The notes under the pieces: model-generated
Database searches by the model: none
What the model saw: only the letters and a program-made list of their open reading frames with translations
Told to the model about the DNA's origin: nothing
Program-made: the position numbers and the translations under genes
Shown here: positions 1-21,781 of the stretch, piece after piece
Position numbering within the stretch: position 1 is the first letter of the stretch
How the letters are laid out: each line of letters starts with the position of its first letter
Source: a virus
Length of the DNA stretch: 21,781 nt
IMG/VR virus record: IMGVR_UViG_3300008116_007988
Span: 1 to 21,781 of that record
Strand: one strand, 5' to 3'

Positions 1-1653
1 TATCAAGCTAGTTTTGCTATAAGAAATAATGGTTCTCTTTTTGCTTTTGGAAATGCCACTACTACTAGATTAGGGGACGGTACTACTGTAAACAAGTCAA
101 GTCCTGTTCAACTTTATTCTACTTCTTCTTTTGCTATGGTAGGAGGAGATTTTGAAAGAGCTGTAGGATTAACTGTGGATGGAACTTTAATACTATGGGG
201 GGACAATGCAAGCGGACAATTGTTAAATGGTGCAACAGGAGGAGCTGGCACAGGGGTAACAAGACCAATAATACAATTTCCTAGTAAGATTGCAAACGGA
301 ACTTGGAATCAAGTTTCGGCAGGCTCCGCACACAGTGTTGCGTTAGACTCTAATAATTACTTATATGGTTGGGGACACCCTGTTGCGGCTGACCCTGTTA
401 GATTTGCTTCTTGGTCGCAAGTTAGTATGGGTATATGGACTTGGACAGCAATACGAAGTGATGGAAAATTATTTGGTTCAGGAGAAGGATATACAGCAGT
501 CGGATCTGGAACTATAATACAAGTAGGCCCAGATACTTGGTCTAAAGTATCTAATGATGGCTATGGAAATCATATAGGTATTAAAACAGATGGAAGTCTT
601 TGGACATGGGCAGGTAATTTAACATCTCTTACTAATCATAGACCCGGGGAGTCCTGGGTCTTTGCCACAAATCGTGTTGGCATAAATATGGCAATTCGAA
701 CTGACGGTGCTCTATTTACTTGGGGTAGCAATTTTTACGGGCAACTTGGTCAAAACACTGCAAACGTATCAGTCACTACTCCTGTTCAAGTAGGTACAAA
801 TTCTTGGGTATTTGCAGTCACCAATGGGGCTGTGGGAGACGCAGTTGCTGCACTACGTTCAGATGGTAAAATATTTTGTTGGGGCAGAAATAACCTTGGT
901 CAGTTAGGCGATAATACAACAATAAATCGTTCTAGCCCTGTGCAGATTACTGGAACAAACACATGGGCAAATACTGGAACTCCTCTAACTGGAACAGAAA
1001 GAGCATTTTTTGCTATAGCATCTTCAAATGGAGCCATCTGGAAGTGGGGAGGGAGTGACTCTTACTTAGGATTAACAGTATCTTCGCCTGTTCTATTGAA
1101 TAGTTCTTCTTGGATTCATGTTGCCGGGGGAGACTCATCATTATTACATATACGATATGATGGAAAATTATTTGGAACCGGAAGAAATGATGGAGGACAA
1201 TTAGGGGGAGGAGATACTGCAACTCCAAAAGATACTCAAGAAGTAATAGGGGGAGGTTCTTGGACTCAAATATCTTTGTTTAAAGGCTCAAGCTCAGGTA
1301 TTAAATCTGATGGAAGCATTTATAATTGGGGATCTGGTGCTCTTAATAGAATTACTATGGGAGAAGGTACTACTGAAGGCAGGTCTAGTCCTACTCAGCT
1401 CGGATTTGATACTAATTTTATTAAATCTCCAACTCAAATTGGATCCACTCAATGGAAGAAAATTTCTGCTGGATCAAATTATACCTTGGGAGTTCAATCA
1501 AATAATATACTTTATGCTTGGGGCGCTAACTACTTCAGAGCTATGGGAGTCCCCTTAGTACGAAACACTCCAACTTCTTTAGGTTATTATGGAGTGAACG
1601 CAACCGCAGGACTTAATCATGCGGCTTTATTGGTAACTAGTAATACAAATTAG
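1..1653 (+). CDS. RCC1-repeat protein, 5'-truncated by the window edge (possible virion or adhesin component)
   Basis: The reading frame is open from base 1, and the first 45 codons already carry repeat sequence, so the gene starts upstream; the ATG at 136 is internal. The visible 550 residues contain about 11 units of roughly 50 residues, each with a core such as WGSNFYGQLG, WGRNNLGQLGDN or GTGRNDGGQLGG, followed by a PVQVG-like strand. This is the pattern of the RCC1/RLD beta-propeller family. Seven units make one blade ring in RCC1, so 11 or more suggests more than one propeller or an extended array. No signal peptide can be judged because the N-terminus is missing. Family members are protein- or glycan-interaction scaffolds; a phage structural or host-contact role is inference. 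It ends with TAG, and the next gene starts 9 bases later in the same frame. Its place before a sugar-modification cassette makes it a candidate target of those enzymes, which is unproven. Confidence 0.85.
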   Translation, partial: YQASFAIRNNGSLFAFGNATTTRLGDGTTVNKSSPVQLYSTSSFAMVGGDFERAVGLTVDGTLILWGDNASGQLLNGATGGAGTGVTRPIIQFPSKIANGTWNQVSAGSAHSVALDSNNYLYGWGHPVAADPVRFASWSQVSMGIWTWTAIRSDGKLFGSGEGYTAVGSGTIIQVGPDTWSKVSNDGYGNHIGIKTDGSLWTWAGNLTSLTNHRPGESWVFATNRVGINMAIRTDGALFTWGSNFYGQLGQNTANVSVTTPVQVGTNSWVFAVTNGAVGDAVAALRSDGKIFCWGRNNLGQLGDNTTINRSSPVQITGTNTWANTGTPLTGTERAFFAIASSNGAIWKWGGSDSYLGLTVSSPVLLNSSSWIHVAGGDSSLLHIRYDGKLFGTGRNDGGQLGGGDTATPKDTQEVIGGGSWTQISLFKGSSSGIKSDGSIYNWGSGALNRITMGEGTTEGRSSPTQLGFDTNFIKSPTQIGSTQWKKISAGSNYTLGVQSNNILYAWGANYFRAMGVPLVRNTPTSLGYYGVNATAGLNHAALLVTSNTN

Positions 1654-1662
1654 GATATTTTT

Positions 1663-3225
1663 ATGCATGAAATTGATCAAATGTTGCAATTACAATTGCA
1701 AGGAAAACAAAAAGAAGCAAGAGCACTTTCTGATAAACTTGAAAATATTGGGCCAGAAAAAATATTAGATCCCAAAGGGCAAAATACAGAAGATATTTGG
1801 TTAAGACATTGTTTTAATCGAGGGTGGTTTTTATTGCAAGATGGAGATTATCAAGCCGGATGCAAATTATTAGAATCTGGAAGATTTTTAAGTGTTTACG
1901 GCAGCTCTCCGCTTAAGACAAACGCTCCAATCTACAATCCAGAAAAACATGAATTAAAAGGCAGATCAATTATTATCTCTCTAGAAGGCGGTTATGGCGA
2001 TGAAATAATTCATGCTCGATTTGCTACAAGTTATAAAAAATTAGGAGCTGCAAAAGTTTATATTGCTTGTGCTCCAGAACTTCTTTCTGTGCTGTCTCGT
2101 ATAGAAGGAGTGGACAAAACTATACTTCGTAGTGAAACTCATACAGTACAGCACGATTATTGGGTGCCAGGATTTAGTGCAGGATGGGTTGCAGGTCATA
2201 CCTTTTCTAACTTTCCAGGCAAACCGTACATGCAACCATTGACACAATCAGTAGAAATATGGAAAAATTTAATTTCTTCTGATAAAATTAAAGTTGGAAT
2301 AAGATGGGCAGGAAATCCTAAATTTGAGCATCAACAATTTAGAAAATTTCCAGAAAATTTTATAACAAATTTAGCTCAGTACAAAGAGTTACAACTTTAT
2401 AGTCTACAAAGAGATCATAATTTAATACAACTTCCAGAAAATATTATAGATTTACAGCATTTCTTATTAAGCTGGGAAGATACTATGGCTGCAATAGCCA
2501 ATCTAGATCTAGTAATTACATCTTGCACTAGTATTGCACATTTATCTGCTGCTATGGGTAAAGAAACTTGGGTTATTGTTCCCATACTTCCTTATCATAC
2601 TTGGACAGCAGGATCGCCAGAAGGAAAAACTAGTCCTTACTATGAAAGCGTTACATTATATCGTCAAGTTGAAACAGGTAAGTGGAACTTAACGTTTCAA
2701 TCGCTATATACTGATTTAGAAAAGAAGTTTAATTTAACTTCTTTAAATCTTCCAAACGAAGACAAAGTATTTAAAAAACTAAATCTAGGCTGCGGAACTA
2801 TGAAAATAGATGGATTTATCAATGTTGATAAGTCTTCACTAGTAAATCCAGATGAAGTTGTAAATTTAAATTCATTTCCTTGGAAGTGGGCAGATAAAGA
2901 ATTTGGGCACATTGTAGCAAAAGATATTTTAGAGCATATAGAAGGAAATTTTATCGATATAATAAAAGAAATGTATAGAATTAGTGATAATAGCGCAATT
3001 TTACTAGCTTTCGAAGAAGATATTGATATACAAGTGTGTGATGTAATGTTTGAATACACTCAGCCTTTTATGGAAAAAATTAAAAATAAAACTATTACTG
3101 AAGAAGAATTGCAATTTTCACTTAATCATTTAAATAATGTTGCACATTCTGTAAAAGTATTGATACAGGTACATAAACCAGGTAGAATTGACTCGAAAGA
3201 ATTACAGCAAGCGTTGGCATCATGA
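1663..3225 (+). CDS. GT9-like (heptosyltransferase-type) glycosyltransferase fused to a C-terminal SAM methyltransferase-like domain
   Basis: This is a 520-residue, two-part protein. Residues 1-80 are helical and TPR-like (NRGWFLLQDGDYQAG). Residues 100-350 resemble TPR-linked ADP-heptose:LPS heptosyltransferase (GT9, GT-B fold) proteins: ISLEGGYGDEI near 105-115, KVGIRWAGNP at 210-219, and a nucleotide-sugar-side segment, DLVITSCTSIAHLSAAMGK, near 282-300. From residue 370 a second domain opens with methyltransferase motif I, LNLGCG (373-378), followed by an acidic residue in INVDKS and by KDILEHIEG, typical of Methyltransf_11-like proteins. The methyltransferase part is short (about 150 residues). 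The likely role is sugar transfer plus methylation in glycan building; donor and acceptor are unknown. The start has an AGGA element 7 bases upstream, overlapping the preceding stop. The stop overlaps the next start as ATGA. Confidence 0.75.
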   Translation: MHEIDQMLQLQLQGKQKEARALSDKLENIGPEKILDPKGQNTEDIWLRHCFNRGWFLLQDGDYQAGCKLLESGRFLSVYGSSPLKTNAPIYNPEKHELKGRSIIISLEGGYGDEIIHARFATSYKKLGAAKVYIACAPELLSVLSRIEGVDKTILRSETHTVQHDYWVPGFSAGWVAGHTFSNFPGKPYMQPLTQSVEIWKNLISSDKIKVGIRWAGNPKFEHQQFRKFPENFITNLAQYKELQLYSLQRDHNLIQLPENIIDLQHFLLSWEDTMAAIANLDLVITSCTSIAHLSAAMGKETWVIVPILPYHTWTAGSPEGKTSPYYESVTLYRQVETGKWNLTFQSLYTDLEKKFNLTSLNLPNEDKVFKKLNLGCGTMKIDGFINVDKSSLVNPDEVVNLNSFPWKWADKEFGHIVAKDILEHIEGNFIDIIKEMYRISDNSAILLAFEEDIDIQVCDVMFEYTQPFMEKIKNKTITEEELQFSLNHLNNVAHSVKVLIQVHKPGRIDSKELQQALAS

Positions 3226-3917
3226 AGTCATTGTTTTTTAACTACGAGTGCAATATAGCTCAAACTTATATTATTCGATTGCAAAATAATGCTACTTCTT
3301 TACGACTTGCAGAAAGATGTGCAAATTCTTGCAAGACTGTAAATCAATCATACGAATTTTGGGATGCATATGACGGTAGTGGAGAAACTATTATTGTTCC
3401 AGCACATCACAATGCAATCATGAACTTAATTAAAATTACGGATCATTACTGCACTCAAGGAGAAGTGGCAACTGCATTGTCTCATATTTCTCTATGGGCA
3501 CAGTGTGCTTTAATAGATAAACCAATTTTAATTTTAGAACACGACGCAATAATGGAAAAAACTTATTCATCTCATTTAGTCTATAACTCAATAGGATATT
3601 TAGGCGGATCTGAGCAAAAGTTTAAAAATTGGCCTATATATGCCACTCCTCCACATGCTAGCGAAGGTCCAAACTATCATTTTATTTGTAGAGCACATGC
3701 ATATTCCATAGACCCCGCTGTGGCTAAAAATTTGCTTAGTTATGTAATTAAATATGGAATTACGGCCCCGCTTGATATTATGATGAGAGCAGATATTTTT
3801 TCTTTTCATCAAATGGATTTATATGCTTATGATTTATCAGAGCATAATAATACAACAATATTAAATAGACCTTTGGAGGGTAGAACAACTAAACGAAATG
3901 ATAAGTTAGAATGGTAA
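3222..3917 (+). CDS. GT25-like glycosyltransferase
   Basis: A 231-residue protein. GEVATALSHISLWAQ (80-94) followed by PILILEHDAI (101-110) matches the core of family 25 glycosyltransferases, which include LPS galactosyltransferases and collagen hydroxylysine galactosyltransferases. There the ExD motif, here EHD at 106-108, binds the metal and nucleotide sugar. Near the N-terminus TYIIRL is the usual first beta strand, and YEFWDAYDG matches the family's FxAxDG stretch. Near the C-terminus, APLDIMM resembles the family's PxD region. The ATG overlaps the upstream TGA (ATGA), a sign of translational coupling. The 3' end overlaps the next start by 7 bases. The acceptor could be LPS, another glycan or a hydroxylated protein side chain; the oxygenase gene at 4620 makes the last option worth testing. 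Confidence 0.72.
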   Translation: MKSLFFNYECNIAQTYIIRLQNNATSLRLAERCANSCKTVNQSYEFWDAYDGSGETIIVPAHHNAIMNLIKITDHYCTQGEVATALSHISLWAQCALIDKPILILEHDAIMEKTYSSHLVYNSIGYLGGSEQKFKNWPIYATPPHASEGPNYHFICRAHAYSIDPAVAKNLLSYVIKYGITAPLDIMMRADIFSFHQMDLYAYDLSEHNNTTILNRPLEGRTTKRNDKLEW

Positions 3918-5205: not shown

Positions 5206-6468
5206 ATGAAATACAAATTTAGTATAATTACACCAGAGCATGATGTTAAAAATATTGAGTACCTATTAGAGTTGTATAATTCTATTTGTGCTCAAACTTA
5301 CGATAATTGGGAATGGGTACTTTATTTAAACAATGGAGCGTCAACAGATTTTGTTCCAGAAGAAATTGCATCAAATCCAAAAGTTTCTATTCAGATGCAA
5401 TTTTATTATAATAAAAAAATTGGATCAATTAAACATTATGCTTTCAAAAAAGCAACTGGAGACATTTTAGTTGAAGTTGATCACGATGATTTAATTACTC
5501 CAGATTGTTTGGAAAAGTTAAATGAAGCTTTTCAAGATCAAGAAATTGGATTTGTTTACAGTGATTCTGCTGTATTACACATGCAAAATCAATTTGTTCC
5601 TTATGATACTAGGTATGGATGGACATATAGAAAATTTGATTGGAAAGGACAATCATTATTTGCAATGAATAGTTTTGAGCCTACAAGTCAAGCTATGTCT
5701 TATATATGGTATGCCCCTGATCATGTAAGAGCTTGGCGTAAGTCAGTTTATAATGAAATTGGAGGGCATAATAAAGAGTTAGATATATGCGACGATCATG
5801 AGCTTGTAATTCGAACTTATCTTGCAAGTAAAATGAAACATATACCAGAAGTGTTATACATCTATAGAGTTACGGGCAACAATACTTGGTTAAATCGAAA
5901 TCAAGCAATTCAAGATACGACAAAACAGTTATTTAAAACATATGCACAAAGTTTAGCAGAAAGAGAAGCAGATTTAAGAGGGCTTTTAAAAGTAGATATA
6001 GGTGGAGGACTAAATCCTTACCCAGGATACTTTACAATTGATTTGCGACAAAATTCTAATATAGTTCATGATTTAAATAATGGAATTCCTCTTCCAGACA
6101 ATTCAGTGGGAGTATTAAATGCTAGTCATATACTTGAACATTTGCACGATAAGACAAAGATTATGTCAGAAATTCATAGAGTATTGGCTCACGGAGGCTG
6201 GGCCTTTATAGAAATTCCTAGCACTGACGGTAGAGGAGCTTTTCAAGATCCAACTCATGTAAGTTATTGGAATGAAAATAGCTTTCTATATTATACAGAT
6301 AAGTATTTAGCGGATTTTATTGACAATACTTCTATAAAATTTATGGAATTTAGAAAAGATACTTATTTTCCAAATGAGTGGATGAAAAATTTAAATGTTT
6401 GTGTAACGACTGCTTGGCTTGTTGCTCACAAAGACGGTCCAAGATTACCTCATACACTAAATATTTAG
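5206..6468 (+). CDS. GT2 glycosyltransferase fused to a C-terminal SAM methyltransferase
   Basis: A 420-residue bifunctional protein. The start chosen is ATG 5206, just after the upstream TAA (5202-5204). The frame is open 29 codons further, but that stretch overlaps the oxygenase gene and the protein fold begins at KYKFSIITP. Residues 1-225 are a GT-A family 2 domain: SIITP strand, VEVDHDD metal-binding motif (90-95) and CDDHELVIR (195-203) as the likely catalytic-base region. Residues 260-400 are a Methyltransf_11-like domain: motif I VDIGGG (263-268), acidic D279 in FTIDL, ASHILEHLHD, then HRVLAHGGWAFIEIP. The methyltransferase may cap or tailor the sugar that the GT2 domain adds. It ends with TAG at 6466-6468 and converges with the SleB gene, overlapping it by 4 bases. 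Confidence 0.82.
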   Translation: MKYKFSIITPEHDVKNIEYLLELYNSICAQTYDNWEWVLYLNNGASTDFVPEEIASNPKVSIQMQFYYNKKIGSIKHYAFKKATGDILVEVDHDDLITPDCLEKLNEAFQDQEIGFVYSDSAVLHMQNQFVPYDTRYGWTYRKFDWKGQSLFAMNSFEPTSQAMSYIWYAPDHVRAWRKSVYNEIGGHNKELDICDDHELVIRTYLASKMKHIPEVLYIYRVTGNNTWLNRNQAIQDTTKQLFKTYAQSLAEREADLRGLLKVDIGGGLNPYPGYFTIDLRQNSNIVHDLNNGIPLPDNSVGVLNASHILEHLHDKTKIMSEIHRVLAHGGWAFIEIPSTDGRGAFQDPTHVSYWNENSFLYYTDKYLADFIDNTSIKFMEFRKDTYFPNEWMKNLNVCVTTAWLVAHKDGPRLPHTLNI

Positions 6469-6469
6469 T
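6456..6469. repeat. 14-bp perfect palindrome at the convergent gene ends
   Basis: ACTAAATATTTAGT reads the same on both strands and contains the stop codons of both converging genes (TAG on plus, TAA on minus). It is short and AT-rich without a loop, so it is a weak terminator candidate at best; the overlap of the two coding ends could produce it by chance. Confidence 0.5.
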
Positions 6470-6881
6470 CTTCGATATAAAAAAGATGGTCACCGATACG
6501 AGAGACAAAAAACTTTTTACGAAAAAATGAGTTTCTTTTCTTTTTTATACTATGAAAATAGTAGGTATTATGAGGTAAATTAGTAAAAGTATAAGGATAT
6601 ACCTTTAAGGAAATACGCGCAAGGCGTACCGCCTCAATCCAGCTTAAATAATCCTCTGGATAGTCTGATTTACCGTCACAATACCATGAAAATTGACATC
6701 GATTTCGCACTGGATTGGAATATCGATGCAATCCTTGGTAAACAACGGAACATACATCGTTAGGAAACAGCTCGCTGTGTGCTCTATGAAGCACAACTTC
6801 AGCCACTGCAAGTTTACCTTGCAGTGGCTGATTACGAGCCTCCCAGTATATTGCAAGAGCGAGACACGTTTCCGCAATCAT
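6465..6881 (-). CDS. SleB/CwlJ-type cell wall hydrolase (phage endolysin candidate)
   Basis: A 138-residue protein that is essentially one Hydrolase_2 (SleB) domain. IYWEAR with glutamate E14 is the family's catalytic signature; QGKLAVAEVVLHR (21-33), NDVCSVVYQG (41-50) and QFSWYCDG (63-70) follow in the expected order. SleB-type enzymes are lytic transglycosylases that cut the peptidoglycan glycan backbone. There is no N-terminal signal peptide or extra binding domain, so release to the wall would need a holin or similar, which is not visible here. The ATG overlaps the nrdB stop by one base (TAATG). It is the last gene of the minus-strand block. A strong hairpin lies within codons 17-28. A structural role, such as a tail-associated lysin, is the main alternative. 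Confidence 0.8.
   Translation of the reverse strand: MIAETCLALAIYWEARNQPLQGKLAVAEVVLHRAHSELFPNDVCSVVYQGLHRYSNPVRNRCQFSWYCDGKSDYPEDYLSWIEAVRLARISLKVYPYTFTNLPHNTYYFHSIKKKRNSFFRKKFFVSRIGDHLFYIED
6799..6831 (-). other. 14-bp perfect inverted repeat (RNA hairpin) inside the SleB gene
   Basis: The arms 6799-6812 and 6818-6831 are exact complements with a 5-base loop. The arm TCAGCCACTGCAAG is GC-richer than most of the window. The transcript would form a stable stem-loop at about codons 17-28 of the hydrolase gene. Whether it slows translation, protects RNA or is coincidental cannot be told from sequence. Confidence 0.6.
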
Positions 6882-7840
6882 TATTTAAAAATATCCTGCC
6901 AGTTGCCTGAAGTGCTTGCTCGAGCATATTCGGTCGAGCGATTTTCGAAGAAGTTTGTATGCTCAACAGCATTGAGCATATAATCTAGCCATGGAAGTGG
7001 ATTGCTTCGACTATGAAAAATCTTTTTCAATCCAAGTCCTAGCAATCTTCGATCTGCAATATATCGAATATATTCTTTTACTTCGTTTGCCGTCAGCTCG
7101 GGGACGGTGCAGCTTTCAAATACAGTATCAATAAATGCATCTTCAAGCTCTACTACTCGTTCTGCTGCGCAGTAGATTTCATACTTTAATTTATCGTTCC
7201 AAATCTCAGGATTTTCACGAATAAACTCTCGAAATAGCCGACTCATGCCTTCGACATGCAATGTTTCGTCGCGAACAGACCAAGTAATAATCTGACCCAT
7301 ACCTTTCATTAGATTATGTCGAGGATAATTTAACAAAATAGCAAAACTGCTAAAAAGTTGAACTCCTTCGGTAAATCCGCTGTAAACTGCAAGAGTTTTT
7401 GCAATATTCATGGGATCTGACATATTAAAGTTTGTCAGATACTCGTGCTTATCCGCCATTGCCTTGATATTTGCAAACATTTGAAACTCAGTTTCATCAA
7501 ATTCTAGCGTATCGACTAGCAAAGCGTATGCTTCTTGATGAACTGCTTCCATACCAGCAAAAGCTGCAAGCATCATGCGTACTTCTGGCTTTTTAAACGT
7601 AGGCAAATAGTGTTTTGCATACCCACAACATACATCTACGTCTGCCTGCGTAAAAAATCGAAAGATTTGCGACAACAACTTTTTGTTATCTACATCAAGC
7701 TTTGTGCGAAAGTCCTTTAGATCGTCAGCCAAAGGAACTTCATCAGGCAGCCAATGCATGTGCTGTTGAGTTTTGTAAAACTCAAACGCCCACGGGTACT
7801 CAAACGGTTTGTAATAATTTCTTTCATTAAGTAGACTCAC
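6881..7840 (-). CDS. nrdB: Ribonucleoside-diphosphate reductase class I beta subunit (R2)
   Basis: The 319-residue protein has the full di-iron ligand set in order: D67 (TQAD), E98 and H101 (GMEAVHQ), E158 (FTEG), E192 and H195 (DETLH). Y105, seven residues after E98, matches the radical tyrosine of the E. coli protein. The C-terminus NWQDIFK is the flexible tail that docks in the large subunit. The protein makes and stores the radical needed to turn ribonucleotides into deoxyribonucleotides. The start is GTG at 7840 (codons GTG AGT CTA CTT), preceded by AAAGGAG with 7-base spacing. It overlaps the stop of the small zinc protein upstream as GTGA, and its TAA overlaps the SleB start. Length and ligands are normal, so it should be active. 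Confidence 0.97.
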   Translation of the reverse strand: MSLLNERNYYKPFEYPWAFEFYKTQQHMHWLPDEVPLADDLKDFRTKLDVDNKKLLSQIFRFFTQADVDVCCGYAKHYLPTFKKPEVRMMLAAFAGMEAVHQEAYALLVDTLEFDETEFQMFANIKAMADKHEYLTNFNMSDPMNIAKTLAVYSGFTEGVQLFSSFAILLNYPRHNLMKGMGQIITWSVRDETLHVEGMSRLFREFIRENPEIWNDKLKYEIYCAAERVVELEDAFIDTVFESCTVPELTANEVKEYIRYIADRRLLGLGLKKIFHSRSNPLPWLDYMLNAVEHTNFFENRSTEYARASTSGNWQDIFK

Positions 7841-13781: not shown

Positions 13782-14759
13782 TTAGCTATTAAAGACAGAT
13801 AAAATTCCATCTACTGTATTACGTATTGTATGCTTGTTTATTACGTAATTATAATTATTTTCTATATTTTGTTCTATAAAATTTTTATCTTTCATTTCCA
13901 AGATATGGGTTACTAACTGTTTATTATCTATGTAGGTAAATCCATAATTACTTAATACTTTGGCACCGGCTATATATCTAGATGCCCATGAAGTTTTATT
14001 TAACATTGCTTCTAAAAGTACTAGCCCAAATCCTTCGACAGTAGAGTGCATTATATACATGTCACTTTCAAATAAAGCTGATAACATATCTTTTCGTTCT
14101 GTTAGTATAAAACTTTTAACATACTCTGTAGCCTCAGGCATTAAGTTACATCTGTTATCATACCCTGTTACCACTAAAGTAGTATCAGGTAGCTTTAATT
14201 CATTAAAAATATTTGCAAGATCAACATGATTTTTATTAGGCCAGTACCCTCCGCAAGATGATATCATAAATTTAGTTTTAATTTTATACTTTTCTTTAAA
14301 CCCTGCCGTGCCTGTAGAATTAACTATGTTAATACCGTGTGGAACATAAATAGCTTTATGTTGAACGTTAAACTTATTAACAAAAGCATAGTCATCAAAA
14401 GTTGAACAACCTATATACGTAGCATTAGATATTCCTCTCATAAATGCTTCAGACTCGCTTGGTAATATAAGAAGAAACAGTATTGGAGATTTAATAATAT
14501 GCGAATTATATAATACTAAATCTTGTATGGGTACATTTCCTCCATGAACAACTATTAAATCCCAATGTTTCAATAAAATATTAGGATCAGAAGTTAAAGA
14601 AACACCATTTAAATTACCTTTATGTTCTCCTGCAAATACAGTTACATTTATACCTCTGCTTAAAGTATTTTCTGCAATATCTCTTACATAATTTTCTGAA
14701 CCTCCAGGGTAAGGAGGGTATCTGTGAACAACAAATAAAATATTTTTTATGCTAAACAT
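13782..14759 (-). CDS. GT4-like (GT-B) glycosyltransferase
   Basis: A 325-residue protein. The N-terminal strand NILFVVHRYPPYPGGSE (6-22) contains the glycine-rich acceptor-side loop of GT4 enzymes. VPHGI (139-143) begins the second Rossmann domain, SSCGGYWPNKNH (167-178) is the usual start of the donor-binding half, and EGFGLVLLE (242-250) is the ExxxxxxxE signature that binds the nucleotide sugar. GT4 members are retaining transferases acting at the cytoplasmic face on lipid-linked or soluble glycans. It overlaps the upstream methyltransferase gene by 13 bases and is the last member of the sugar island before gp47. The donor sugar is unknown. Confidence 0.83.
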   Translation of the reverse strand: MFSIKNILFVVHRYPPYPGGSENYVRDIAENTLSRGINVTVFAGEHKGNLNGVSLTSDPNILLKHWDLIVVHGGNVPIQDLVLYNSHIIKSPILFLLILPSESEAFMRGISNATYIGCSTFDDYAFVNKFNVQHKAIYVPHGINIVNSTGTAGFKEKYKIKTKFMISSCGGYWPNKNHVDLANIFNELKLPDTTLVVTGYDNRCNLMPEATEYVKSFILTERKDMLSALFESDMYIMHSTVEGFGLVLLEAMLNKTSWASRYIAGAKVLSNYGFTYIDNKQLVTHILEMKDKNFIEQNIENNYNYVINKHTIRNTVDGILSVFNS

Positions 14760-15295
14760 ATAATTTTTAGTACAGAGTTACAGGCGGGTTTCGGATTTCT
14801 ATCATCAGTAATTCTTTCAATATTTTTAAAGCCATTATTTTCTAATAATTCTTTTAAACTATCAAAATTAAAAGCGTTAACGTGTCCCATTCCTGGTATT
14901 TTATACTCTCTTTCATTATGAAATCCTCCAAATAGATAAGACATAGCATTTTTCCAAGGATTATTTGTAGGATTTAACCAGGCTACATTAGCTTCTTTTT
15001 CCCAGTCGTTATATATAATTCTTTCAAAAATCCAGTATGCATCAGGAACTGTTACCTCAAAAACTGCTTGAGGTTTTAAAATTCTATGAACTTCTGTCAG
15101 TACTTTATCGATATCAAAAATATGTATATGCTCAATTACATCACACATATAGGCTTTATCAAAAGTTTTACTTTCAAAAGGGTAAGGTATATTCATCAAA
15201 TCATGAATACAGTTTACCTGGGGCCAAGGGTATAGGTCCATTTTAATATCTGCATTTGCTCTAGGCCATGGGCCGGAGCCTATATCAATAATCAT
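14747..15295 (-). CDS. Class I SAM-dependent methyltransferase (Methyltransf_11-like)
   Basis: A 182-residue, single-domain protein. Motif I is IIDIGSGP (2-9), the acidic residue ending strand 2 is D20 in KMDLYPW, and CDVIEHIH (51-58) followed by VHRILKPQAVFEVTVPD supplies motifs IV to VI. It resembles the methyltransferase halves of the plus-strand fusion proteins (IGSG/IGGG, EHIH/EHLH, HRVL/HRIL) and may be a stand-alone relative. Small-molecule or sugar methylation is likely from context; DNA or RNA as substrate is not suggested. It overlaps the GT4-like gene by 13 bases and sits 21 bases from the epimerase gene. Confidence 0.82.
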   Translation of the reverse strand: MIIDIGSGPWPRANADIKMDLYPWPQVNCIHDLMNIPYPFESKTFDKAYMCDVIEHIHIFDIDKVLTEVHRILKPQAVFEVTVPDAYWIFERIIYNDWEKEANVAWLNPTNNPWKNAMSYLFGGFHNEREYKIPGMGHVNAFNFDSLKELLENNGFKNIERITDDRNPKPACNSVLKIICLA

Positions 15296-15316
15296 AAATT
15301 TTCTCTATGTCTAGCT

Positions 15317-16186
15317 TTATGTGATATTTTTTATAGCCATGTTTATACCATGCTCTAAACAAATTTTTGGTTTATAAAACGATAGCATTTTTGAAGGATT
15401 ACAACATCTATACATAACACCTACTGGAGCTGTATTAATATACTTTATTTGAGGAGAGTATCCAATTTGCTGACAAATTATTTGTTGTAAAATATTAAAA
15501 GTTGTTGGAATTCCACTTCCTAAATTAACTGGACCTATTATATCATTGTTAATAGCCGTATCTACTGCATCTACAATATCTTGTATATGAATAAAGTCTC
15601 TTACTTGAGTACCGTCTCCCCAAATTTCAAAAGGGTCTAATTTTAGTTTTCCTCTCATAATGTATGCTGGAAAAGGGTAGTTTAAATCTTGATCCGTGCC
15701 ATAGCCACTAAAGGGTCTAAATATATGCACTTTGATTTTAGCTTCTTCAAGATATTGTAAACAAAATTCTCCTGTTAACTTTGCCCACCCATAAGTCATA
15801 TCTGGAGTAGAGCAATCTGAGAGATTAATATCTGACTCTTTTAATTTATATTTATCTTTGAAATTTTGTAATTTAATTGGATACGCAGCCGAAGAAGAAA
15901 AGTATACTACTCTAGTTGGTTTTACTTTTAAGCACCATTGAATAAATTCTGAATCAATGGAAAGATCATCTGCAACAGCTAAAGGATTATTTTCTATAGT
16001 TACTCTTCCTCCTACAATTGCCGCTAAATGAATTACTAAATCAATTTTTAAATCTAAATTTTTTTTGAAGAAATCTCTACAGTCATTTCCGTCTTTTAAG
16101 TCAACTCCTATTATTTCATGATCTATATACTTTTTAACAAAATATTTTCCTACAAATCCTTTATGACCAGTAATTAAAATTTTCAT
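15317..16186 (-). CDS. NAD(P)-dependent nucleotide-sugar epimerase/dehydratase (extended SDR)
   Basis: A 289-residue Rossmann protein. ITGHKGFVG gives the GxxGxxG dinucleotide loop (G7, G10, G13), VIHLAA (51-56) is the extended-SDR strand-4 motif, SSSAAYP (97-103) carries the catalytic Ser/Thr, and YGWAK (Y132, K136) is the catalytic YxxxK. RDFIHIQDIVDA and NLGSGI follow, as in UDP-glucose 4-epimerases, GDP-mannose dehydratases and GDP-fucose synthases. It would supply a nucleotide sugar for the surrounding transferases. The exact sugar cannot be decided. It is separated by 1 base from the upstream GT-B-like gene. Confidence 0.88.
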   Translation of the reverse strand: MKILITGHKGFVGKYFVKKYIDHEIIGVDLKDGNDCRDFFKKNLDLKIDLVIHLAAIVGGRVTIENNPLAVADDLSIDSEFIQWCLKVKPTRVVYFSSSAAYPIKLQNFKDKYKLKESDINLSDCSTPDMTYGWAKLTGEFCLQYLEEAKIKVHIFRPFSGYGTDQDLNYPFPAYIMRGKLKLDPFEIWGDGTQVRDFIHIQDIVDAVDTAINNDIIGPVNLGSGIPTTFNILQQIICQQIGYSPQIKYINTAPVGVMYRCCNPSKMLSFYKPKICLEHGINMAIKNIT

Positions 16187-16187
16187 A

Positions 16188-17177
16188 TTATAGCTCCGAG
16201 GCGTAAATAATATCGTTTATTCTATTAATATAAGTGTGATTATTTTTGATATTATTCATATGATGTAAAATTAAATTTTTAGTGGTAGGATTTTGTTGTA
16301 ACTCTATAATATTATCGAATAAATCGCTAGAATTTTCAGCATAAGCGCAGTCTCCATTAAAAAATTCTTTTATAGCTAAAGAATTTGTAACTGGAATAGC
16401 CCCATAAGATGCATTTTTTATAGGCCTACATGCAATATAACCATTAGCAAGGTGATTGGCGGGTCTAATATCTAACGGTAACAATGAACTACAAACATAT
16501 TCTCTAATTTTTTTTGTAGGCATCTGATTGTCGAAAGGATTATTGTATAAAAAAGGTATATTATGTTCTTCGCATTTTTTTATAAAACCTTCAAATAAAG
16601 GCCCATTGTCTTCTCTTATTGTTCCACAAAAAAAGGCTTGATTTTTTTGTTTAATAAATCTATCTTCAAAATTTATTTCATTAGGTAGAAGATCAGTTCC
16701 CCATATTGTATATAATCTATCGTAGTCATTTGAGGTCTCATAGAACGATACTTCGTTTAGACGATAATATTTACTGGGCTCAAAACTATAGTTGTAGTTT
16801 TTATCTTCTACTCCATTATTTCCCCAGCCATTTTTAGCATTAAATCTAAGATCAATTAATTTTCCAACTTTTCCTAAGTATAAATCTGCACCAGGATTTT
16901 GTTCTACTTTACCCTTATTGCCTAGATAGTGCACAAAATAAGTTGCAGTTTTATTAAGAGGCATATTATTGCTAGCTCCAAATGCAAATACTAACCATTG
17001 TTCGGTAATTACTATTGCATTATCAAAAAAAGAAGCATTAACATTGTCTCTGTTATCTAACCAGTATGTATCCCATCCTAAGTATTTTGCTGCTCTATAA
17101 AAGGCTTCATGAATAAATCCATGAGTGTGACCTGTATCTAGCTTTGCTCCCCAAATGATAATTTTATTATGCTTCAT
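16188..17177 (-). CDS. Putative GT-B-fold glycosyltransferase, divergent
   Basis: A 329-residue protein that I recognise only in outline. The N-terminus KIIIWGAKLDTGHTHGFIHE looks like a glycine- and histidine-rich acceptor-side loop, followed by AAKYLGWDTYWLD, the usual second strand of a GT-B Rossmann domain. The C-terminal half has AFFCGTIRED and a GYIACRPIKNASYGAIPVTN segment, which resembles the donor-binding side of exostosin- or DUF-type transferases (small residues, then a switch to a visible locus of the donor). No signal peptide or membrane segment is evident. Its position between an epimerase and a FkbM-like methyltransferase, with an 11-base overlap on one side and 1-base spacing on the other, supports a glycan role. 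Confidence in the specific family is low. Confidence 0.5.
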   Translation of the reverse strand: MKHNKIIIWGAKLDTGHTHGFIHEAFYRAAKYLGWDTYWLDNRDNVNASFFDNAIVITEQWLVFAFGASNNMPLNKTATYFVHYLGNKGKVEQNPGADLYLGKVGKLIDLRFNAKNGWGNNGVEDKNYNYSFEPSKYYRLNEVSFYETSNDYDRLYTIWGTDLLPNEINFEDRFIKQKNQAFFCGTIREDNGPLFEGFIKKCEEHNIPFLYNNPFDNQMPTKKIREYVCSSLLPLDIRPANHLANGYIACRPIKNASYGAIPVTNSLAIKEFFNGDCAYAENSSDLFDNIIELQQNPTTKNLILHHMNNIKNNHTYINRINDIIYASEL

Positions 17178-17724
17178 AACCTAATCTCTTGTGCACCCAT
17201 AAATCATCTACATGATAGTGAGGCTTTCCTATATCATAAATTTCTTTTACAAGAATAAAATCTTTTTTACGCAAAAATTCTCTGGACTCATCTCTAGTTC
17301 CCTTACGTTTAAAGTTACATTCTACGTCTCCTCCATAGTCGCATTCAAACGTAATAACATTAAATGAATAATTTGTTTCGAATATTTTGTACAAAGCTTC
17401 AAGAGATAATGTGGTAGGAGGATCAACATCAATAGATAAATAATCTATAATTTTTGGGGCATTATTCAAGTCTAGTAATTTTTGATAGTCTACTTTAGTT
17501 GCATCTTCACAGTGAAAATACGAGTTTTTCCTAAATTTAGCCCAGTCTGCCTTGTACTTTTCATAAAGTTCTACTGCTACTCCTGTCCAATCTCGTTCTA
17601 TCTCAAAAAATTGAGAATTACTCATATGGTCATAGTAGCAAGCTCCTATGTCTAAAAAGAATCCTTTTCTTTTTTTATTTAAAATAGTATCTACTAACTT
17701 GTCTTGCCCGAGTTGAGATCCCAT
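17167..17724 (-). CDS. FkbM-family methyltransferase
   Basis: A 185-residue protein. SQLGQDKLVDTIL (3-15) followed by KGFFLDIGACYYDHMSNS is the characteristic opening of FkbM-type SAM methyltransferases, with motif I LDIGA at 24-28. VAVELYEKY marks strand 2, and YLSIDVDPPTTLSLEAL matches the family's L-SIDVEG-like segment. FkbM enzymes O-methylate sugars or natural products, and they are common in surface-glycan loci. It starts 1 base after the upstream methyltransferase stop and overlaps the next gene by 11 bases. The protein is shorter than many FkbM members but contains the whole core. Confidence 0.85.
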   Translation of the reverse strand: MGSQLGQDKLVDTILNKKRKGFFLDIGACYYDHMSNSQFFEIERDWTGVAVELYEKYKADWAKFRKNSYFHCEDATKVDYQKLLDLNNAPKIIDYLSIDVDPPTTLSLEALYKIFETNYSFNVITFECDYGGDVECNFKRKGTRDESREFLRKKDFILVKEIYDIGKPHYHVDDLWVHKRLGYEA

Positions 17725-17725
17725 A

Positions 17726-18355
17726 TTACTCCTTTGTAATACACCATGCAGTATTTTCTAGAAAAGTTAAGTTTGACAGTTCTTTTTTTACGCTGGGCAA
17801 AAAAGTTTCTAAAGCTTTTCTAACTGAGTATAAATTTATATCATGACCTGCAAATATTCCACCTTGTTTAACTTTAGGCCAATAAAGCTGACAGTCAGAT
17901 AAGGTATTTTCGTAAGAATGATTTCCATCAATAAATAGAAAATCTAAACAATTATCCTCTAAAGTTTTAACAAACTCGAAACTTGATGTAAATGCAAAAT
18001 TTATTTTTTCTTTGTAAGGGTTAAGTCTAGCTACACATCTTGCTTTGATTTCTGCCTGCCTTTCAGCGGTTAAGCGTATCCCGCCATTGCTATCAACAAA
18101 TTCTGGGTAAGGGTCTACGGCGTGAAAAATTTTAATATTTGGAATATTTCTTAATAAAAATTCTGAAGTAAATCCATGACAAACTCCTATTTCACAGCCT
18201 ATTAATTCTCCTTGCAATTTTTGCAGATAAGGCAAAAGACCTATTCCAGATATAGTATGAAGTTGACTGCCATACTCAATTTGTTTATCTACCCATTCTA
18301 ATGTAGGCAAATGATCATAAGGATCAGCACACGGTGTTTCTATAATATATTTCAT
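17726..18355 (-). CDS. Class I SAM methyltransferase (Methyltransf_24-like)
   Basis: A 209-residue protein. CEIGVCHGFTSEFLL (54-68) is motif I of the type seen in cephalosporin-hydroxylase- and O-methyltransferase-like proteins. HAVDPYP (78-84) carries the strand-2 aspartate, and FLFIDGNHSYENTLSD (139-154) with GGIFAGHD (165-172) is the conserved metal- and substrate-side block of that group. A small-molecule or sugar O-methyltransferase is likely. Together with FkbM and the single-domain enzyme at 14747, it makes three separate methyltransferases in one island. The next gene downstream starts 1 base after its stop. Confidence 0.82.
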   Translation of the reverse strand: MKYIIETPCADPYDHLPTLEWVDKQIEYGSQLHTISGIGLLPYLQKLQGELIGCEIGVCHGFTSEFLLRNIPNIKIFHAVDPYPEFVDSNGGIRLTAERQAEIKARCVARLNPYKEKINFAFTSSFEFVKTLEDNCLDFLFIDGNHSYENTLSDCQLYWPKVKQGGIFAGHDINLYSVRKALETFLPSVKKELSNLTFLENTAWCITKE

Positions 18356-18383
18356 GAGTTTCCATTGTTGTAATAAATTTTAT

Positions 18384-19259
18384 TTAACTATAAGTACTTT
18401 TTATCAAGTTACTCCATTCAGGTATTCTATCATACTGATGAACTATGCTATAAATTTGGTCTTTTTTATTACAAATTTTATTATTTACTATTTTAGGGCG
18501 ATTTTCTTCTAACTTTAATTTATTTGTGCTTTTTGAAATTATTCCGACTTGATCATTTCTGCACTCTATGGCTTGAATAGTCGCTCCAGCATGACAAACC
18601 CAAGTATCGTGGCCAGAATTAAACTGTATTATATCTTTGTAAGGAGTTAGACTAATTAATATATTTAGTGCGGCTTGATCAGGGCCGCCTCCCCCAGGAA
18701 CTTGCTGTATGGTGGATTTACTTATTAAGTATAAGTTTAAGAATAAGTCCACCAAAGCTTTTCTAGTACCGCCTATTACTCCAGCACAGTAAATTTTATT
18801 ATTTTTTACTTTTTCATAGAAGTACGGACCAAAACTTTTTAGTATATTATTTTTACCCCATGGCTCTTCTTCATAAGTTAAATTTTCACTTCCTAGATAA
18901 ATTAATTTATTACTAAAGTATTTAAATGGATCAGTTTGAAAAATAACATCTTTAATATCAGTAAAAATTATATTGTTAATATCTGTTAATTCGTTTAAAA
19001 ATAGCGATGCATGAAGAAATCTATCTACCATTATAGAAAAATTTGGATAAAAGTCAAAACTTAAATTATTACTATTATCTTTTTTAAATGCAAAAATTTT
19101 AACATTTTCTTTAGTTAATTTTTCAACATCAGAAGATGCCATATTATAGGCAATCAAACCTATAGAGATGTCTGTATTTAATGCTTTTATAGACTTAACC
19201 CAAGGTTTAATATCTTCATAAGAATAATTTAATACAGCACCTAGAATCATATTACCCAT
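18384..19259 (-). CDS. GT-A-type glycosyltransferase, GT8-like
   Basis: A 291-residue protein. IIFTDIKDVIFQTDPF (97-112) contains the DxxD motif and the TD.xDV.FQ.DPF pattern of a GT-A group found in capsule and plant-type transferases. VPGGGGPDQAALN near 192-204 is the usual donor-side DQ segment, and HQYDR sits near the C-terminus where the family has a metal-binding histidine. Two starts are possible: ATG 19259 (used here, with an AAAGGA element about 8 bases upstream) and ATG 19250, which would make an ATGA overlap with the previous stop but leave the ribosome site further away. It overlaps the GT2 gene and leaves a 28-base gap before the next gene. The sugar is unknown. Confidence 0.7.
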   Translation of the reverse strand: MGNMILGAVLNYSYEDIKPWVKSIKALNTDISIGLIAYNMASSDVEKLTKENVKIFAFKKDNSNNLSFDFYPNFSIMVDRFLHASLFLNELTDINNIIFTDIKDVIFQTDPFKYFSNKLIYLGSENLTYEEEPWGKNNILKSFGPYFYEKVKNNKIYCAGVIGGTRKALVDLFLNLYLISKSTIQQVPGGGGPDQAALNILISLTPYKDIIQFNSGHDTWVCHAGATIQAIECRNDQVGIISKSTNKLKLEENRPKIVNNKICNKKDQIYSIVHQYDRIPEWSNLIKSTYS

Positions 19260-19960
19260 GGAAATTTTCCTTTATAGAGTTGATTCATAATGCTGTTGCC
19301 TTGAATAATAAAATCTTTTGATAATTTAGCGGCACCAAAACTTATTCTGTAGTTCATTGTTCTTTTGCCACTAGTGCCAAATTTACTATGATCTTTGATA
19401 GTATTTAAAAATATTCTATCACCACACTCTGCAACATGCCAAAATTGGCTTACTTGAATCAAAAATTTACGTGTAAAAGCGTAACAACTAGTGTCAACGT
19501 GATAGTGTGCTTGGTTGTTATTTATATAAGAAGTCCAGACAGGCCAATTACCTAAGCTTTCACAGTTATCTGGTATAACTTCTTTTTCGTCTACAATATT
19601 TCTTAACGAATAAGCCCAGTCATATTTATTTTTTTCTATGCAATCAACTAAAGATGAAACATGATTTCTTTCTATCCAGTTATCATCATCTAGAAAATAT
19701 ATATAGTCTTCATTTACTAAATGAGCAAATCCTGCAAATATTCTATGTCCACAAAATCCGTTTTTACCTACGTTTTCAGGTAAACAAATTACCGAGGCAT
19801 TTGGATTTATAGTTGAAATATTTGCAGGAATTTTATGTAAAAATTCAGGGCCATCCACTACTATTAGATGCTTTGTATTATAAGTTTGATCTCTTACACT
19901 GTATACAGCTTCTAATAATCCTGGGTGCCCTGTACAAGGAGTTATAACTATTGCTGACAT
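19247..19960 (-). CDS. GT2 glycosyltransferase
   Basis: A 237-residue GT-A family 2 protein. IVITPCTGHPGLLEAVYSVRDQTY (4-27) is the nucleotide-binding opening, and IYFLDDDNW (87-95) contains the DDD metal-binding motif. The C-terminal third, with AECGDRIF, would hold the catalytic acid region. It has no membrane helices, so it is a soluble rather than processive enzyme. It is the first gene of the sugar island. Its ATG overlaps the SLOG stop by 1 base (TAATG), so translation is linked to the replication-side genes upstream. Confidence 0.83.
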   Translation of the reverse strand: MSAIVITPCTGHPGLLEAVYSVRDQTYNTKHLIVVDGPEFLHKIPANISTINPNASVICLPENVGKNGFCGHRIFAGFAHLVNEDYIYFLDDDNWIERNHVSSLVDCIEKNKYDWAYSLRNIVDEKEVIPDNCESLGNWPVWTSYINNNQAHYHVDTSCYAFTRKFLIQVSQFWHVAECGDRIFLNTIKDHSKFGTSGKRTMNYRISFGAAKLSKDFIIQGNSIMNQLYKGKFPWVI

Positions 19961-20310
19961 TATACCTTTTTCACATGCACTAATAATCCTTTTTCTTTGG
20001 CGATTTCAATCATGTGTGCTGTTCCACGACTTTTGCCATCCCATACGGCTACTAAAGCATCTGCATTTTTCACCATTGTAATATTCCGCTGTATTCCTTC
20101 AGCGGGGTCGAAGCTATCTGTTGTGTTCCAGTGATCTACCATAATTCGCACAGGAATTTTATTTAGATGAGCGTAAGCTTCTCCAAACTCATCTACACCG
20201 CGCGCTCCTCCGGAAAGAATCTCTGTAACAGCCCATGGGGCTTCAGCGATTGCTGAAGCCACATAGGAATATCGATCAATTGTTCGCGAACCTGCTACAA
20301 TTGTTCTCAT
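19960..20310 (-). CDS. YspA-like SLOG-domain protein (DUF2493 type)
   Basis: A 116-residue, single-domain protein. IVAGSRT (4-10), ILSGGARGVDEFGEAYA (31-47) and ADALVAVWDGKSRGTAHMI (83-101) are the signature of the YspA/DUF2493 branch of the SLOG superfamily, Rossmann-like domains thought to bind nucleotide-derived ligands (known as a family prediction; exact activity undefined). Related SLOG domains occur in DprA, LOG and anti-phage systems. It follows gp32: its ATG overlaps the TAA that ends the gp32 tail as TAATG, so it is probably made by reinitiation. If ribosomes stop at the TAG in gp32, 213 bases upstream, that coupling would be lost. Confidence 0.85.
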   Translation of the reverse strand: MRTIVAGSRTIDRYSYVASAIAEAPWAVTEILSGGARGVDEFGEAYAHLNKIPVRIMVDHWNTTDSFDPAEGIQRNITMVKNADALVAVWDGKSRGTAHMIEIAKEKGLLVHVKKV

Positions 20311-20522
20311 TACAAATCAAGCTCACTCTCCACTTCTTCCGGTACTTCCACTGAGCCGTTTGCGTCAGTTTCGGGAACCCCGCGGCTGATTCGCTCAAGA
20401 AGCTCTTTTTGTGCATCAGCAGTGGGACGAGGAAGAACATCATCCATTGACTTGAGGCTTGCAATTAGACTACGTTCTGCATCCGTAAGAGATCGCTTCT
20501 TGCACTTCAGTGCTTGGAGCTG
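20310..20522 (-). pseudogene. Detached acidic C-terminal tail of gp32, downstream of an in-frame TAG
   Basis: After the TAG at 20523-20525 the same frame stays open for 70 codons to TAA at 20310-20312. It begins QLQALKCKKRSLTDAE, continues with a helix rich in acidic residues, and ends SVEVPEEVESELDL. A conserved-looking basic/hydrophobic segment followed by an acidic end is how gp32-type proteins finish (the acidic A domain that binds partner proteins). No good ribosome site precedes an ATG here (the only one, at 20447, is not preceded by a Shine-Dalgarno), so it is not an independent gene. It is annotated as a broken part, but readthrough would restore a 216-residue gp32. Confidence 0.8.
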
Positions 20523-20525
20523 CTA
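20523..20525 (-). other. In-frame TAG stop dividing the gp32 coding frame
   Basis: The codon order on the minus strand is GTA GAG TAG CAG CTC CAA. One base change in a TAT or TAC (Tyr) codon would give this TAG; by memory of related phage gp32 proteins, tyrosine is usual at this place (NVEYxLQ), which should be checked. The stop is followed by C, a weak termination context in bacteria. All other stops in the minus-strand genes are TAA or TGA; TAG is used as a true stop only twice, on the plus strand. Confidence 0.85.
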
Positions 20526-20960
20526 CTCTACATTATAAGTCTGAGGACCAGTTTTGACTCGCTTGAAGTATACATCCCAGCCTTCATCTGGATCGGTCGG
20601 ATCGCCTAGATCTTCTGCTGCAACAAGAATCTGCTCAAGAAGCTTCTTTTTTAGATTCATAACTTTTACTTTGTTATCGCTAGGGTCAATTACCTGACAG
20701 GCATATGCCCAGCCACATCGAAGATCAGGATAGTAGTCTCGCACCCAATCTTTTTCACGATTGTTAAACTTCTCAAGCTGACGGTCAAAGGACAGACACT
20801 CCATAGGAATATCTTTGTTATTTTCGCCTTTGATCCAGTAAACATAGCGAGGAAGAAGATCACCTACAAAACGAACAACATTGTCGCCATTTTTATAGAT
20901 ATACTGATCAACTTTCTCTTTTACTGCGCCGCCCTTAGTGCTTCCAAATTTAACTGCCAT
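20523..20960 (-). CDS. gp32: gp32-like single-stranded DNA-binding protein, ending early at a TAG
   Basis: The product up to the TAG is 145 residues. ATG 20960 is chosen because GAGGAG stands 7 bases upstream; the frame also runs back to a TTG at 20975, which is not favoured. The basic N-terminus MAVKFGSTKGGAVKEK and the core with NVVRFVGDLLPRYVYWIKG, PMECLSFDRQ and GDPTDPDEGWDVYFKRVKTGP match T4-like gp32 proteins of aquatic phages as I remember them. The T4 zinc-ligand spacing (H, C, C, C) is not complete here. It coats single-stranded DNA and recruits replication and recombination proteins. Without the 70-residue acidic tail it would lose its partner-docking region and bind DNA more tightly. 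The gene lies downstream of the strong promoter at 21345, as would suit an abundant protein. Confidence 0.88.
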   Translation of the reverse strand: MAVKFGSTKGGAVKEKVDQYIYKNGDNVVRFVGDLLPRYVYWIKGENNKDIPMECLSFDRQLEKFNNREKDWVRDYYPDLRCGWAYACQVIDPSDNKVKVMNLKKKLLEQILVAAEDLGDPTDPDEGWDVYFKRVKTGPQTYNVE

Positions 20961-21342
20961 TTTTAGTCTCCTCAAACTTAAAATAAATTTTATTGCCTGT
21001 GATTGTGATTAATCTGTTGTTTTCTATTGCCTTTACGTTTACATACTCCGCGTGTAAAGTCTTTTTGTGAAAAAGCTTATACTCAGTATAATCTCGCCTT
21101 GCAGCAAGCAGTATGTACTGAAGTATTTCTTTTTCTGAATATCGCCAATGTTTATCTAAAAATTCTTCAGGATTTAAAAGGTATGAAGAACCGAACCAAT
21201 CAATAGACTGGTATTTTAACTGTTTGATATCTCTTCGAGATTTTGGGGTAGGTCGATACGTGATATACCATAGTATACCAATCATATTTTGAGTAGAGCC
21301 GCCACTAAATTTCAATAATTTAGATTTGTCAAACAGTATCAT
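20950..21342 (-). CDS. Unknown protein between uvsW and gp32
   Basis: A 130-residue protein from ATG 21342; a shorter form from ATG 21285 would have 111 residues. I do not recognise the family. It is mixed in charge, rich in aromatic residues, and contains a YRPTPKSRRD stretch and an RRDYTEYKLFHKKT region that look like nucleic-acid or protein contacts. No signal peptide, membrane segment or cysteine cluster is seen. Its place between the helicase and the single-strand binding protein suggests a replication or recombination accessory, such as a helicase loader or mediator, but this is only context. The start is uncertain: neither ATG has a clear Shine-Dalgarno, and the strong promoter upstream would start transcripts inside the longer ORF. 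The stop overlaps gp32 by 11 bases. Confidence 0.6.
   Translation of the reverse strand: MILFDKSKLLKFSGGSTQNMIGILWYITYRPTPKSRRDIKQLKYQSIDWFGSSYLLNPEEFLDKHWRYSEKEILQYILLAARRDYTEYKLFHKKTLHAEYVNVKAIENNRLITITGNKIYFKFEETKNGS
20968..20973 (-). promoter_or_regulatory. Shine-Dalgarno site that fixes the gp32 start
   Basis: GAGGAG on the minus strand is 7 bases upstream of ATG 20960. This is among the strongest ribosome sites in the window and argues against the TTG start at 20975. It lies inside the last codons of the preceding gene. Confidence 0.8.
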
Positions 21343-21344
21343 AT

Positions 21345-21373
21345 ATTATATCTAAAATGTACTGAGTTGTCAA
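21345..21373 (-). promoter_or_regulatory. Perfect-consensus sigma70-type promoter upstream of the gp32 operon
   Basis: On the minus strand, TTGACA (21373-21368) and TATAAT (21350-21345) are separated by exactly 17 bases, the ideal spacing. It lies in the only sizeable gap of the minus block (42 bases), after uvsW. Predicted transcription starts at about 21339-21337, after the ATG at 21342. It would drive the unknown protein, gp32 and the genes beyond. A host-type promoter of this strength fits an early phage transcript. Confidence 0.85.
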
Positions 21374-21384
21374 GAAGTATTTTT

Positions 21385-21781
21385 TTACAGGATATTAATT
21401 GAGTATCCTTCGTGCAGATAATGTGCCATTCGAGCCTGAGCTTGTCTGGCTGCAGTTTTACCTTTTAGATGAATATCTACAATTGTAGGCTGTAACTTAT
21501 CAGGGGAAAGCCGTACTACACGACCAATTAACTGAGTTAGTAGTGGAGTATTATTTACTGGCGTTCCTAATACTAGACAACTTAACTCATTAATTGAGAT
21601 ACCTTCAGAAAAGATAGATTGTGTACCAAACAACACTTTTTTCTCTCCAGATGCGATTTGCTGGGCGGCTTTTAGTCTAGCTTCACGCGTTTGGTCGCCC
21701 GTAACACTTACAGCAATTTCGCCTACCAGTTCGGCGCAGCTCTTCAAAAACCGCACACGATCAGAAAGCACCAAAACTCTA
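21385..21781 (-). CDS. uvsW: UvsW-like SF2 DNA helicase, C-terminal part (5' end outside the window)
   Basis: The last 132 or so residues of a superfamily-2 helicase. The frame is open to the right edge (RVLVLSDRV), so the gene begins outside; the apparent start at 21774 is an internal leucine codon. GTQSIFSEGISI is motif V with the usual GTxxxxEGxxI pattern, and QLIGRVVR is motif VI with the arginine finger. T4 UvsW unwinds and anneals branched DNA during recombination-dependent replication and removes R-loops. The neighbouring unknown gene, gp32 and gp46/47 agree with this. Another phage SF2 helicase cannot be excluded because the N-terminal motifs are missing. Confidence 0.78.
   Translation of the reverse strand, partial: RVLVLSDRVRFLKSCAELVGEIAVSVTGDQTREARLKAAQQIASGEKKVLFGTQSIFSEGISINELSCLVLGTPVNNTPLLTQLIGRVVRLSPDKLQPTIVDIHLKGKTAARQAQARMAHYLHEGYSINIL

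Follow-up and report, generated by a model that had tools for sequence, protein, structure and literature searches.

An in-frame TAG in the gp32-type ssb gene of a metagenomic phage contig is most probably a private change of a conserved tyrosine codon

The DNA analysed here, referred to as the window, is a stretch of 21,781 nucleotides from a viral metagenomic contig (IMG/VR record IMGVR_UViG_3300008116_007988). Its minus strand encodes a single-stranded DNA-binding protein (SSB) in a frame that is interrupted by one TAG codon, which raises the question of whether this TAG is an error, a mutation or a signal that is read through during translation. An earlier note on the window proposed a sequencing or assembly error, a real amber lesion or regulated readthrough; the list is a sensible one, with the third option found to be unsupported for the reasons given below. 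The minus-strand translation, running from 20960 to 20310, begins with MAVKFGSTKGG, reads TYNVE, stop, QLQALKCKK across the interruption and ends with VESELDL before the final stop. Translation confirmed the claim that the frame opening with the ATG at 20960 meets a TAG at 20523–20525 and then remains open for 70 codons to the TAA at 20310–20312. This TAG is the only in-frame stop within the gene and is codon 146 of 216, or of 217 when the final stop is counted. The 70 codons downstream match, in a colinear fashion, the C-terminal third of intact SSBs from relatives, and the downstream open frame is therefore not due to chance. The TAATG overlap with the next gene was likewise correctly attributed to the distal stop, as the ATG at 20310 overlaps the TAA, and the ssb stop and the next start share a base in two related contigs as well (L001 and L004). 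The further claim that this is the only TAG stop in a minus-strand block of 20 genes holds in that TAG terminates none of the other minus-strand genes, though the minus-strand genes number 19 rather than 20; TAG is the terminator of two plus-strand genes, which end at 1653 and 6468. The features of the locus are listed in Table 1.

Table 1. Coordinates of the interrupted ssb gene, its parts and the gene that follows it in the window
Feature	Position	Strand	Basis or remarks
ssb gene (gp32-type single-stranded DNA-binding protein)	20310..20960	-	216 codons, including the TAG, followed by the final stop
In-frame TAG, codon 146	20523..20525	-	Tyr (TAT/TAC) in relatives; motif with TAG absent from IMG/VR
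Codons 1-145: N-terminal region with the larger part of the OB fold	20526..20960	-	Secondary structure and confidence of the model
Codons 147-194: remaining gp32-like core (end of strand 144-148; helices 160-166, 172-175 and 181-193)	20379..20522	-	Model; alignment with T4/RB69 gp32 core
Codons 195-216: disordered acidic tail ending VESELDL	20313..20378	-	pLDDT < 50 over 194-216; charge count
Next gene, YspA/SLOG-like	19960..20310	-	ATG overlaps the ssb TAA (TAATG)

The interrupted gene is an ordinary phage gp32-type SSB gene. Residues 1–144 of the product match phrog_1607, "single strand DNA binding protein" (E value 1.5e-30), and the intact homologue encoded by L001 matches the same family with an E value of 1.4e-36. 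The tblastn matches include proteins annotated as phage ssDNA-binding proteins or D11 (E values down to 6e-16), from enterobacterial and Vibrio phages, with 34–40% identity. The score against the Pfam gp32 family PF08804 was 13.2 bits, below the gathering score of 26.8, and the protein is therefore classed by its fold and PHROG rather than as a PF08804 member. The SSB family profile matched no PDB sequence, and an hhalign comparison to only T4 gp32 gave no useful information; fold comparison was the only method that worked for the link to the PDB and T4. The AlphaFold2 model used for this comparison is that of the intact L001 protein, with 36 aligned sequences as input, and it has a mean pLDDT of 73 that rises above 90 over much of the core. 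This model aligned to 1gpc with a Z score of 11.3 (165 residues, rmsd 3.4), to 2a1k with 11.5 and to 8gme with 10.0. The gp32 core structures were the only good matches, the next unrelated rows having Z scores of approximately 4. Residues Cys55, Cys82 and Cys153 are invariant in the SSB alignment and are candidates for a zinc-binding site in the core. The earlier identification of a gp32-like SSB is thus backed by both phrog_1607 and the gp32 core fold. The protein resembles the SSBs of T4 and RB69 (PDB 1GPC, 2A1K and 8GME) and of marine phage relatives (PHROG 1607) in its OB-fold core (165–167 residues aligned, Z 11.3–11.5), its acidic disordered C-terminal tail and its place among replication genes. 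It differs from the T4 and RB69 proteins in sharing only about 14% sequence identity with them and in its low Pfam gp32 score, and from all of these SSBs in the TAG at codon 146, which is found in the window's copy alone.

A lone premature stop in a metagenomic contig, when followed by conserved sequence, mimics recoding until relatives are compared. The search of IMG/VR for related loci returned 80 ssb loci, and codon 146 encodes Tyr in all 79 that cover it (TAT in 46, TAC in 33). The nearest relative, L001, with 93.9% DNA identity over 1,629 bp (window 20153–21781), has TAT at this codon, one base from TAG. Tyr146 is also invariant in the 36-sequence alignment. IMG/VR was additionally scanned with a degenerate DNA pattern for the motif surrounding codon 146, in which the codon at the site was varied. 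The motif with TAG gave no matches in IMG/VR, while with TAT or TAC at least 119 were found; all 119 that were fetched are ssb relatives and 118 of them aligned as Tyr. The seven matches with TAA or TGA all belong to one unrelated gene and were rejected as parallels. Matches to the TAG motif in genome contigs were also rejected, being chance occurrences outside SSB genes. An exact search with the local sequence and any base at the site did not turn up a second contig from this population. The earlier note held that relatives always carrying Tyr here with no TAG would make this an error or an isolated mutation, and this is the pattern observed. Our main reading, to which we assign a probability of roughly 0.94, is that the TAG is a private one-base change of the conserved Tyr codon 146 and is not programmed, with an error likelier than a real amber mutation.

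Among 199 relative loci, a few of whose contigs are counted twice, 193 encode a full-length protein, four run off the contig and two are interrupted for other reasons. The first of these two, L122 (IMGVR_UViG_3300002231_000395), has its minus-strand ssb locus (5754–7689) in two pieces that encode residues 1–127 and 129–191, with approximately 1.37 kb between them. The insert encodes a 357-aa LAGLIDADG_3 protein and contains two matches to the Rfam group I intron family RF00028 (E values 4.9e-11 and 0.0017), the first scoring 49.1 bits, just under the gathering score of 50. This phage ssb gene is probably interrupted by a mobile group I intron that carries an endonuclease. The second, L206 (IMGVR_UViG_3300050343_000216), has a frameshifted ssb gene at 2860–3308. 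Its contig carries a ribonucleotide reductase gene in seven pieces, along with many frameshifts and stops, and is an error-rich assembly. Neither locus was accepted as a parallel to the TAG of the window.

The comparison with L001 bears on the age of the TAG. The codons downstream of it exhibit 11 differences between the two contigs, nine synonymous and two non-synonymous, and those upstream exhibit 23, of which 21 are synonymous and two non-synonymous, giving no detectable difference in constraint between the two parts (Fisher p 0.58). Under neutral expectation, two or fewer non-synonymous changes among the 11 would occur with a probability of approximately 1e-4. On these counts, purifying selection continued to act on the downstream codons after the lineage separated from that of L001. 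From this constraint it follows that the TAG is recent on the branch of the window, is not in the genome, or is read through, and an old null allele is ruled out. Constraint alone does not separate a recent change, an error and readthrough, and, as no relative carries the TAG, nothing speaks positively for the last of these.

The position of the stop within the protein is informative in this respect. In the L001 model, codon 146 falls within a predicted strand (residues 144–148) in a stretch with pLDDT above 80. Three helices lie C-terminal to the stop, and the disordered acidic tail does not start until about residue 194. The gp32 core of T4 and RB69 aligns to model residues 16–194. The earlier note placed the acidic tail downstream of the TAG, which is correct for the last 22 residues with their VESELDL end (eight acidic residues and no basic ones), but residues 147–194 are folded core with a net positive charge (seven acidic and 10 basic). 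Judging from the model, the short product would lose approximately 48 core residues in addition to the 22-residue tail. The "*I" form of T4 gp32 is also a C-terminally shortened gp32-type protein, but it keeps the whole core (residues 22–253) and is missing the acidic C-domain of residues 254–301 (PMC5892887), whereas the 145-residue fragment from the window would be without the 48 or so core residues. Since the stop lies in a core strand and not at the border of the tail, termination at the TAG gives no *I-like tail-less gp32, and such an analogue was ruled out.

Programmed readthrough of the TAG, by which short and full-length SSB would be made in a fixed ratio, is very improbable. A stop programmed in this way would be expected at a domain border that lets both products fold, and codon 146 is instead in the predicted core strand, away from the tail boundary near 194. 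The open and constrained frame downstream agrees with readthrough, but a recent change or an error would leave just the same constraint, and the C following the TAG was taken as a weak termination context by the earlier note only. The TAG is conserved in no relative, and no stimulatory RNA structure was found 3' of it, as the predicted folding of the 98 nt around and downstream of the stop was not improved over that of shuffles (z = +0.44). The earlier note also suggested a search for a CUA-anticodon tRNA; there are no tRNA genes in the window, and none with this anticodon is among the tRNAs of five related contigs, all of them fragments. With no conservation, the wrong position, no RNA structure and no suppressor tRNA found, regulated readthrough is left unsupported. 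Were it real, it would provide a novel means of tuning SSB activity, yet the evidence gives it no advantage over an error or an isolated mutation. It is similarly hard to credit that one population carries a real, partly read-through TAG, making some full-length SSB and leaving the rest as a short fragment with a role of its own.

Reassignment of TAG to an amino acid throughout the phage, as in genetic code 15, has a negligible probability. Phages with a reassigned TAG show this codon across many genes. The 6,932 codons of the other 24 genes of the window include 219 for Gln and 316 for Tyr but no in-frame TAG, leaving the single TAG in ssb, and reassignment is therefore excluded for practical purposes. 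Consistent with reassignment, TAG is rarely used as a stop (by two plus-strand genes out of 25), and the one at 1651–1653 shares its frame with the start ATG of the gene downstream. Readthrough of the TAG at 6468, on the other hand, would extend the product by three residues only, and the window and the five fragmentary related contigs provided no CUA tRNA to decode TAG, a tRNA present in only some half of code-15 phages (PMC11210395). The plus-strand gene that ends at 1653 (136–1653) is RCC1-like, and three codons separate its TAG from the in-frame start of the next gene, an ATG at 1663 (window 1651–1665). Readthrough at this point would fuse the two genes, but the spacing is probably a coincidence of close packing.

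A private base change that was not programmed may be artefactual or real. We consider a miscalled base, or a consensus or assembly error in the metagenomic contig, to be the probable cause. That the sampled phage has recently acquired a true amber mutation is possible but rather unlikely; such a mutation would be either lethal or debilitating, and thus present in a minority or dead genome, or tolerated by means of an amber suppressor tRNA of the host or phage. Such tRNAs are known in some phages (PMC11210395), though none with a CUA anticodon was found in the window or in the five related contigs, which are fragments. The TAG is a single-base step from the TAT of L001, and the window is otherwise without broken genes, so that the contig is not generally error-rich, which counts against an error; a one-base substitution in an otherwise clean contig fits error and mutation alike. 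Gene 32 is essential in T4, and SSBs of this type are essential where tested. Because of this, and because the truncation cuts the gp32 core, we infer that an error is likelier than a mutation. In either case, one private base change would have turned the conserved Tyr codon of an ordinary gp32-type ssb into TAG. If the TAG is real, termination would yield a 145-residue fragment that breaks off within the OB fold and probably neither folds nor functions, and the phage would be reliant on chance suppression, or be non-viable or a minority variant.

The locus shares with the in-frame stops described in prokaryotic protein-coding genes (PMC7918605) the conservation of the codons downstream. Most of those events were concluded to be short-lived, and artefacts were limited by a focus on stops common to two or more species (PMC7918605). 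The stop in the window differs in being present in one contig only and would fail this two-species filter.

Between the SSB and YspA-like genes and the replication genes, the minus strand of the window encodes a block of genes (approximately 13782–20153) that, judged by eye, resemble glycosyltransferases and methyltransferases. The DNA similarity to L001 ends at approximately 20153, inside the YspA-like gene, which suggests that this block is a variable, exchanged segment.
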